From: Actinobacteria bacterium HGW-Actinobacteria-1
Lineage (GTDB): Bacteria > Actinomycetota > Coriobacteriia > Anaerosomatales > Anaerosomataceae
Direction: 5' to 3'
Length of the DNA: 63,411 nucleotides
NCBI GenBank assembly: GCA_002841355.1
Contig: PHFB01000015.1
Span: 1 to 63,411 of the forward strand
Shown here piece by piece: positions 61,597 to 63,411 of this stretch; the stretch's first letter is position 1, and the number at the start of each line of letters is the position of its first letter. The position numbers and the translations under genes were made by a program. Below the pieces are notes generated by a model. That model ran no database searches and was not told the origin of the DNA. It worked only from the letters and a program-made list of their open reading frames with translations.

Positions 61597-63411
61597 GTGA
61601 CACGCGCGGTCTCGCTGCATGTCACCGGCGTCGTGCAAGGCGTCGGCTATCGCCCGTTCGTGTACAACCTCGCACGTCGCCTCGGCATCACCGGCTGGGT
61701 GCGCAACGCGTCCGACGGCGTCTGGTGTCTCGCCGAGGGCGAACCTGCGGTTCTCTCGGCGTTCGAGCGCGCGCTGCGCGATGAGGCGCCGCCCATGGCG
61801 GTCGTCGAAAGCGTAGTCGCCGAGGAGGTCGACGCCGAGGGCGCGACCGAGTTCGTGATCGTCGCATCGCGCGCCGAGGAAGGCGCGATGACGCTCGTAT
61901 CCCCCGACATCGCCACCTGCGATGCGTGCCAAGCTGAGCTCTTCGACCCGACCGACCGCCGCTACCGCTATCCATTCATCAACTGCACCAACTGCGGGCC
62001 GCGCTTCACGATCATCGACGACGTCCCCTACGACCGCCCGATGACCACGATGCGCGACTTCCCGATGTGTCCCGAGTGCGCTGCCGAGTATGGCGACCCG
62101 GCAGACCGCCGCTTCCACGCACAGCCCGACGCGTGCTTCATCTGCGGGCCGCGCCTCTACCTGAACGGCGTAGATGACGCCCCCACCGACTGGGCGTGGT
62201 GTCCCGAGGTCGGGACCTCCCCCCGCCCGCACCGCGATCGCGAAGCCGAGCGGACCCGCAGCGACGCGATCCTTGAGGCCGCGGCCACGCTCCTTCGCGG
62301 CGGCGGCATCCTCGCGATGAAGGGCCTCGGTGGCTTCCAGCTAGCGTGCGACGCCACCAACGAGGGCGCCGTCGCTCGCCTCCGCGACCGCAAGCGCCGC
62401 TGGGGCAAGCCCTTCGCCGTGATGATGCCGACCCTGGATCTGGCGAGCGCGTACTGCGCGATCTCCCCCGACGAGTCGCAGCTTCTAACGAGCCCCGCCG
62501 CCCCGATCGTTCTCCTCCGAGTGCGCGGCGAGGGCATCGGCGGGGGTCGAATGCGAGTTCCGCAGCCGGCTGAAGACGTTGGCCTGTTTGCGGCTGTCCG
62601 GCGAGGACTGTCCGAGCAGGCGACCCCCGCCGATGCCCTCGCCCACCCCCTCGCCCCCTCGCTCGCTCCAGGTCTCGCCGAGCTCGGCGTCATGCTGCCG
62701 TACACGCCGCTCCACCATCTGTTGCTCTCGGCACTCGGCATCCCGCTCGTGATGACGTCGGGGAACCTGAGCGAGGAGCCGATCGCGACCGGCAACGCCG
62801 AGGCGCTCGACCGTCTCGGTCAGATCGCGGACGCCGTCTTGCTGCACGACCGTGAGATCCGCTCGCGCTACGACGACTCAGTCGCGCGCGTGGTCTCCTC
62901 GGGCACGGAGCTGGTGCGGCGGGCTCGCGGCTTCGCACCGTTCCCGCTCAAGCTGCCGTTCACCTCGGATGTAGACATCCTCGCGCTCGGTCCTGAGCAG
63001 AAGAACACGGTGACGCTCCTCACCGGCGAGTATGCGTTCGTGTCGCAGCACATCGGCGACATGGAGAACGCCGAGACATTCGCCGCCTTCGAGCGCACGA
63101 TCGAGCTCTACGAGCGGCTCTTCCGTGTACGCCCCGGGATCGTCGCGTACGACTTGCACCCCGAGTACCTCTCGACCAAGCACGCGCTCCGGCTCGGGCT
63201 GCCCGCCGTGGGCGTGCAGCACCATCACGCGCACGTCGCGGGCGTGGCTGCCGAGCACGGCATCGACGGCTCCTTCATCGGCGTGGCGCTCGACGGCACC
63301 GGGTACGGCCCCGACGGCACGATCTGGGGCGGCGAGGTGCTGCTCGCGACGCTCGGCGGCTTCGAGCGGCTCGCGCGGCTCTCGCTCATGCCGATGCCGG
63401 GCGGCGCGGCT
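61597..63411 (+). CDS. hypF: Carbamoyltransferase HypF for [NiFe]-hydrogenase maturation, 3' end outside window
   Basis: Frame open from GTG 61597 to the edge (605 codons). Domains in order: acylphosphatase (VSLHVTGVVQGVGYRPFVYNLARRLGITGWVRN), two zinc fingers (CDACQAELFDP, CTNCGPRFTII, CPECAAEY, CFICGPRLYL), YrdC-like domain (ILAMKGLGGFQLACDAT, RKRRWGKPFAVMM) and the beginning of the Kae1-like domain (HHHAHVAG, GVALDGTGYGPDGTIWGGE). HypF makes the CN ligand from carbamoyl phosphate and delivers it to HypE. A 39-codon insertion interrupts the YrdC part (62527-62643). Hydrogenase genes should lie nearby outside the window. Confidence 0.95.
   Translation, partial: MTRAVSLHVTGVVQGVGYRPFVYNLARRLGITGWVRNASDGVWCLAEGEPAVLSAFERALRDEAPPMAVVESVVAEEVDAEGATEFVIVASRAEEGAMTLVSPDIATCDACQAELFDPTDRRYRYPFINCTNCGPRFTIIDDVPYDRPMTTMRDFPMCPECAAEYGDPADRRFHAQPDACFICGPRLYLNGVDDAPTDWAWCPEVGTSPRPHRDREAERTRSDAILEAAATLLRGGGILAMKGLGGFQLACDATNEGAVARLRDRKRRWGKPFAVMMPTLDLASAYCAISPDESQLLTSPAAPIVLLRVRGEGIGGGRMRVPQPAEDVGLFAAVRRGLSEQATPADALAHPLAPSLAPGLAELGVMLPYTPLHHLLLSALGIPLVMTSGNLSEEPIATGNAEALDRLGQIADAVLLHDREIRSRYDDSVARVVSSGTELVRRARGFAPFPLKLPFTSDVDILALGPEQKNTVTLLTGEYAFVSQHIGDMENAETFAAFERTIELYERLFRVRPGIVAYDLHPEYLSTKHALRLGLPAVGVQHHHAHVAGVAAEHGIDGSFIGVALDGTGYGPDGTIWGGEVLLATLGGFERLARLSLMPMPGGAA
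62527..62643. repeat. 117-bp palindromic element inserted in frame within hypF
   Basis: Two perfect 23-bp inverted arms (62527-62549 and 62621-62643; left arm begins GGCGAGGGCATC) flank a 71-bp centre. The element is exactly 39 codons and starts on a codon boundary, so the frame is kept (peptide begins GEGIGGGRMRV). Removing it joins APIVLLRVR directly to HPLAPSLAPGL, the normal HypF order. It is like the in-frame palindromic elements known from Rickettsia, but the lineage is different. No other copy was noticed here. Confidence 0.85.

Follow-up and report, generated by a model that had tools for sequence, protein, structure and literature searches.

A dispersed palindromic repeat with a conserved apex and site-variable arms, found in frame in an actinobacterial hypF gene

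The analyzed stretch of DNA (the window, 63,411 nucleotides of Actinobacteria bacterium HGW-Actinobacteria-1) ends within hypF, a hydrogenase-maturation gene that encodes the carbamoyltransferase HypF. A long and perfect palindrome lies inside this gene, and the reading frame runs through it. What is this palindrome, and how did it come to be inside a protein-coding gene? Our analysis indicates that it belongs to a repeat family with dispersed copies, defined by the apex of the hairpin.

The palindrome in hypF

The hypF palindrome has a 71-bp centre between perfect 23-bp arms, which an inverted-repeat tool extends to 28 nt at 93%. Its features are listed below.

61597 to 63411, + strand: host gene hypF, identified by Pfam match, continuing past the end of the window
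62527 to 62643, + strand: entire palindromic element, 117 bp, 39 in-frame codons, HypF residues 311-349
62527 to 62549, + strand: left arm P1, site-specific sequence, complementary to the right arm at 23 of 23 positions
62553 to 62565, + strand: apex motif A, GCGAGTTCCGCAG, (nearly) invariant columns in alignment A2
62565 to 62602, + strand: inner stem P2 (62565-62569 with 62598-62602) and variable region P3, covarying helices in alignment A3
62603 to 62617, + strand: apex motif B, GAGGACTGTCCGAGC, mostly invariant columns in alignment A2
62621 to 62643, + strand: right arm P1', reverse complement of the left arm

The Pfam domains of HypF are Acylphosphatase, zf-HYPF, Sua5_yciO_yrdC (residues 232-442) and HypF_C. 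The element starts exactly 310 codons into the open reading frame (from 61597), so it adds residues 311-349 and leaves the frame intact. These residues lie inside the YrdC domain. The initial annotation had described the palindrome in these terms, as an in-frame addition of 39 residues to this domain, and its arm, centre and total lengths agree with ours. It had also claimed that HypF reads normally once the element is removed, which is consistent with the closest solved HypF structure, 3vth. The alignment to 3vth breaks off after residue 317 and is taken up again at residue 352, with no 3vth residues in the gap, indicating that this stretch is extra. The element is missing from hypF of relatives including genomes G009, G010 and G018. 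Folded as RNA, it reaches -87.1 kcal/mol, a stability that none of 200 shuffled sequences attained (z = -8.6).

A conserved apex between variable arms

The family signature is a conserved apex, in which motifs A (GCGAGTTCCGCAG) and B (GAGGACTGTYYGAGC) flank an inner hairpin. Motif A recurs in the source genome at C21:196176 and C21:251954. At both places (C21:196.1k and C21:251.9k) it is accompanied by B, and there the two motifs lie inside different complementary arms. The initial annotation had taken the arms as the signature of the element. They are instead the part that is not shared: the first 22 bases of the left arm, searched with up to 3 mismatches, had no match in the genome apart from the two arms of the hypF element. 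In an alignment of 15 copies, A and B are nearly invariant and the arms covary. A covariance model (R1) built from these copies found 1-14 copies in each of 33 of 41 genomes, including three in the source genome; the 15 training copies match by construction. The hypF element scored 95.4 bits (E = 1.9e-14, source genome), a value that is partly circular because this copy is among the 15. Since all three source-genome copies were used in training, the independent support comes from the core lying between unrelated arms and from the other genomes. The proposal that the element is, or was, mobile thus survives the search for further copies in related genomes.

Pairing was assessed over 47 copies. 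Paired cells amounted to 97.1%, compared to 70.6% after shuffling and 35-50% after sliding, and double changes were found in 24 of 27 pairs. Covariation was 0.605 versus 0.147 for shuffles, none of 500 shuffles being as high. The alignment was fitted to the model and is biased its way, but the margin is very large. Across the family, arms differ at nearly every site, yet they are largely complementary (about 85-97% in most groups). Arm complementarity within copies is 0.92 in the order of the source genome and 0.97 in Bdellovibrionales, whereas arm identity between copies is 0.37 and 0.38, respectively. In planctomycetes the arms are nearly fixed, with an identity of 0.97 (seven copies with arms of at least 20 nt). 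Bdellovibrionales arms are mostly 41-83 bp and differ from site to site; four of them have outer and inner parts in common.

Group-specific features extend beyond the apex. At L245, L247, L248 and L263 of G041 (Bdellovibrionales), arms of about 80 bp have common outer ends similar to GGTGCCTGACAC, resembling a second repeat. Many copies in G043 (Adlercreutzia; L264-L283) have conserved outer flanks, GYGTAGA on the left and GACCGGCGA on the right, which may make for a longer unit in these copies. A permuted core was essentially absent, occurring at one of 184 loci, where it lies between two copies; these loci had been found with the A-to-B pattern, which biases this test.

The G.U and A.C pairs in the arms show a strand asymmetry in part of the family. 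P1 pairs of the 47 model-selected copies include 52 G.U and 7 A.C. In sets found by pattern and scored symmetrically, the totals are 237 G.U and 45 A.C, and G.U is clearly above A.C in four of six groups. Bdellovibrionales show no such asymmetry (8:8) and the strict set from the own order hardly any (8:6), and part of the excess in Adlercreutzia and planctomycetes reflects shared ancestry. The element likely has a strand-specific folded form.

These properties raise the question of whether the element is a structured RNA that was reverse-transcribed and then inserted. RNA-like covariation, the conserved asymmetric internal loop and the excess of G.U on one strand all agree with such a retroelement. 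We consider it quite unlikely, as RVT_1 (PF00078) is absent from the source genome, G012, G017, G019, G041, G045, G046 and G055, orientation at a site can flip, and no target-site duplication was seen.

Filled, empty and inverted sites

The hypF linker provides a comparison of one site across relatives. It is filled, with different arms, in G000-G004, G011, G012, G014, G017, G019, G022, G025 and G039, and it contains no A-to-B core in G005-G010, G013, G015, G016, G018, G020, G023 and others. Every inspected HypF homologue outside the genus that contains the stretch has palindromic DNA of its own. Short element-free linkers in G013 (L052) and G005 (L041) contain GCACGCGACCCCC / GCAGGCGACCCCC, resembling the B-side junction of filled sites. 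These fragments are possibly remnants of element deletion. A second HypF linker is filled in G017, G019, G021 and G025; in G017, G019 and G025 this copy is opposite in orientation to that at the first site.

The two arms at the first site change together. The intact hypF orthologues in G000, G002 and G014 each have 23 of 23 arm pairs. Despite a divergence of 37-49% at four-fold sites, their arm changes are all mirrored at matching columns (4/4, 3/3 and 3/3). The G004 copy has 20 of 23 pairs; its left-arm changes are all mirrored and its right arm has 2-3 extra changes. The G001 copy is decayed. Because the arms encode two separate segments of HypF, their coordinated changes suggest that pairing in the DNA matters more than the protein sequence. 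Tandem repetition is also seen at this site. In G004 (L043) the right half of the element (motif B and arm) is duplicated, placing RRGLSEQ twice in HypF. In G039 (L051:2398-2691) the right-arm sequence is apparently repeated several times, in tandem and in frame, after the element.

The apex is also found in opposite orientations. The hypF core of G012 is reversed relative to that of G022, yet the two are 96% identical. Identity to the two other G012 copies compared is about 90%, so the hypF core is closer to that of G022 than to these two, which fits inversion in place. The margin is small, since the G017 core is 95% identical. The N-terminal region of mqnC is empty in G000, G005, G009, G010 and G014, filled in the forward direction in G004 and filled in reverse in G003. 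Here the reversed G003 core resembles another copy in G003 more than it does the G004 copy, which makes separate insertion or conversion as likely as inversion and gives no evidence of inversion in place.

Filled and empty versions are found at additional sites. One intergenic site in Adlercreutzia contains the element in five species and lacks it in three, where 9-21 bp separate the genes; another is empty in two species. A site within a DUF512 gene carries a copy in six and has none in one. Orientation varies between species at one Adlercreutzia site. At one site in this genus the arms and inner hairpin have been replaced wholesale between flanks that are still similar, a change that point-wise correction alone does not explain and that requires conversion from other copies. 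The region upstream of hcp likewise has filled and empty versions among relatives, and G000, G004 and G014 carry the element there with compensatory changes. Several tandem arm-like units (CCCACAGGTCCGGCGC) adjoin one complete element upstream of hcp in G012 (L290 and L343).

The arms could in principle be inverted duplications of the target, created at insertion. This would account for arms that are arbitrary yet perfect, and for the long, site-specific arms of Bdellovibrionales. However, neither arm is visible in the empty mqnC and Adlercreutzia sites, as far as present divergence allows them to be read, and the parts common to the four Bdellovibrionales arms count against such an origin. 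We regard target duplication as improbable; most likely the arms arrive with the insert. No target-site duplication was seen at the compared sites, where the empty versions are too diverged to resolve one.

Distribution, mobility and relation to known repeats

The family is not confined to one actinobacterial lineage, as the initial annotation had supposed, but spans several phyla. The exact core occurs 6-56 times in each of nine genomes outside the own order, and a reversed-pattern control gave 0 matches. Copy numbers are 37 (Adlercreutzia caecimuris) and 32 in two Adlercreutzia genomes, 56 in a planctomycete MAG, and 25, 20 and 15 elsewhere. A contig scan with the exact pattern matched at least 120 stretches. 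Among the matches listed are Adlercreutzia, Enterorhabdus and other Coriobacteriia, Singulisphaera and other planctomycetes, Latescibacterota, Hydrogenedentota, Omnitrophota, Eisenbacteria, Deltaproteobacteria, Myxococcales, Bdellovibrionales, Chloroflexi and one Lachnospiraceae MAG. Many of these genomes are MAGs, and single-copy cases may be contamination; where a genome has many copies, contamination is hard to invoke. Within the own phylum, 396 genomes were sampled and 17 have the exact pattern; 15 of these 17 belong to the own class or to a closer group. The own class includes the Adlercreutzia genome G043, whose hit coordinates are identical to those of G228, and this places the window in Coriobacteriia. 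The core pattern had 0 matches in viral contigs, and an Adlercreutzia copy had no match among plasmids and phages. A by-eye tally of positions in A. hattorii, taking position 1 as the origin, gave no evident replication-strand bias.

The genomic context could point to an old, non-mobile hairpin in RNA or DNA, such as a terminator or a 3' UTR structure, under host selection. Of 47 copies in the own order, 19 are in convergent gaps, and those in tandem gaps are antisense in 14 cases and sense in 3. Retention of the hcp-upstream copy with compensatory changes is also in line with this. As gene calls came from a simple GC3 heuristic and some counted sites are orthologous, hence non-independent, the bias is a lead; the corresponding tandem counts in Adlercreutzia are 9 and 6. 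Against a host hairpin, copies are found in frame inside hypF, a metH-like gene, the N-terminal region of mqnC and a DUF512 gene, the corresponding sites of close relatives can be empty, and orientation flips. This explanation is unlikely. The intragenic copies sit in linkers or termini, as in HypF and in the metH-like gene, where the copy is between the pterin-binding and B12 domains; the DUF512-gene copy sits inside the DUF512 region.

The family behaves as an interspersed palindrome, and two classes of this kind are among its closest known counterparts. Rickettsia palindromic elements (RPEs) are also short palindromes that are inserted in frame into protein genes and add residues, and REP/BIME/REPIN elements with RAYT are dispersed hairpins enriched at 3' ends, some of them intragenic (PMC3733652). 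The initial annotation had likened the hypF element to the former, an assignment that does not hold. RPE-4 and RPE-6 are CGTC-tagged, whereas our family lacks this tag and has another core and copy-variable arms; CGTC or GACG beside an arm is sporadic, and no group exceeds 8 of 38 copies. REPs are 20-40 bp long with their own stem families (PMC3733652), are classed by stems and are in many cases RAYT-linked, in contrast to a family that is conserved at the apex only and whose stem varies from copy to copy.

Mobilization of a REP/REPIN or RPE-type element by a resident Y1 (RAYT/IS200) transposase would fit a dispersed palindrome that is often at gene 3' ends and in some cases interrupts a gene without breaking its frame. 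GTAG adjoins the left arm in 17 of 58 Eggerthellaceae and 8 of 27 Adlercreutzia copies. It does so in only 2 of 38 copies in the own order and in 0 in planctomycetes, Bdellovibrionales and Latescibacterota, so that neither GTAG nor CGTC tags are general across groups. PF01797 is absent from the source genome, G017 (14 copies), G019 (13), G043 (37), G044 (56), G045, G050-G052 and G055, which makes this origin highly improbable. A resident RAYT/IS200 or reverse transcriptase was set aside as the mobilizer on account of its absence from copy-rich genomes. No autonomous partner was found for the family.

MITEs of DDE-type insertion sequences are likewise small, non-coding elements with inverted ends. 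In our family terminal inverted repeats are not shared (arm identity 0.37 in the own order), and ends that are unlike between copies could not be used as common ends by any transposase. Coding palindromes of Nematomorpha (PMC6649704) are similar in description, being long perfect inverted repeats inside protein genes, but are mitochondrial. A comparison of 12 loci with Rfam gave tRNAs as the only matches at gathering score, and the hypF element had only a sub-threshold mir-935 match. A literature search for both motifs returned unrelated papers only, and further searches of open-licence papers gave analogues only. The family is apparently undescribed, as the initial annotation had thought possible for the hypF element.

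We think it probable, on balance, that the 117-bp palindrome is one copy of a dispersed, apex-defined mobile palindrome that spreads by way of a folded single strand. The observations are a dispersed family with many copies, sites that are filled in some related genomes and empty in others, arms that differ between copies but pair within each copy and change together in intact orthologues, and an apex found in either orientation at one site. The recognized and inherited part would be the apex, an asymmetric internal loop of A and B around the inner stem, and the arms would be required only to be complementary. Variation of the arms from copy to copy speaks against common terminal repeats as the recognized feature. 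The folded strand would have the A-to-B sense, as suggested by the excess of G.T/G.U over A.C pairs, and is more likely DNA than RNA. Within genes, insertions such as that in HypF would survive only if they have an open frame and fall in a linker or at a terminus.

At a fixed site, the arms may be kept matched by template switching within the palindrome, by selection on folding, or by both. Template switching between inverted arms homogenizes the arms and inverts the spacer, including in coding DNA (PMC8604942), and maintains hairpins (PMC8794818). Both hallmarks are seen in the apex-defined family, and switching within the palindrome would explain apex inversion as well. Template switching is known as a mutational process, and is not known to maintain a dispersed, apex-conserved repeat family. 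More tentatively, and with considerable doubt, the family may represent a cross-phylum class of mobile palindromes in which the tip alone is recognized and copied, and the arms are created or overwritten site by site, with replication template switching keeping them complementary.

Palindromic repeats are usually recognized by their stems or ends. Here the tip alone is common, across several bacterial phyla, and the stems vary from site to site. The family can serve as a natural system in which to test template switching in bacteria, and as a search image for a mobilizing factor yet to be found. If the cross-phylum reading is true, mobility would be a property of the shape of the hairpin and not of terminal sequences.
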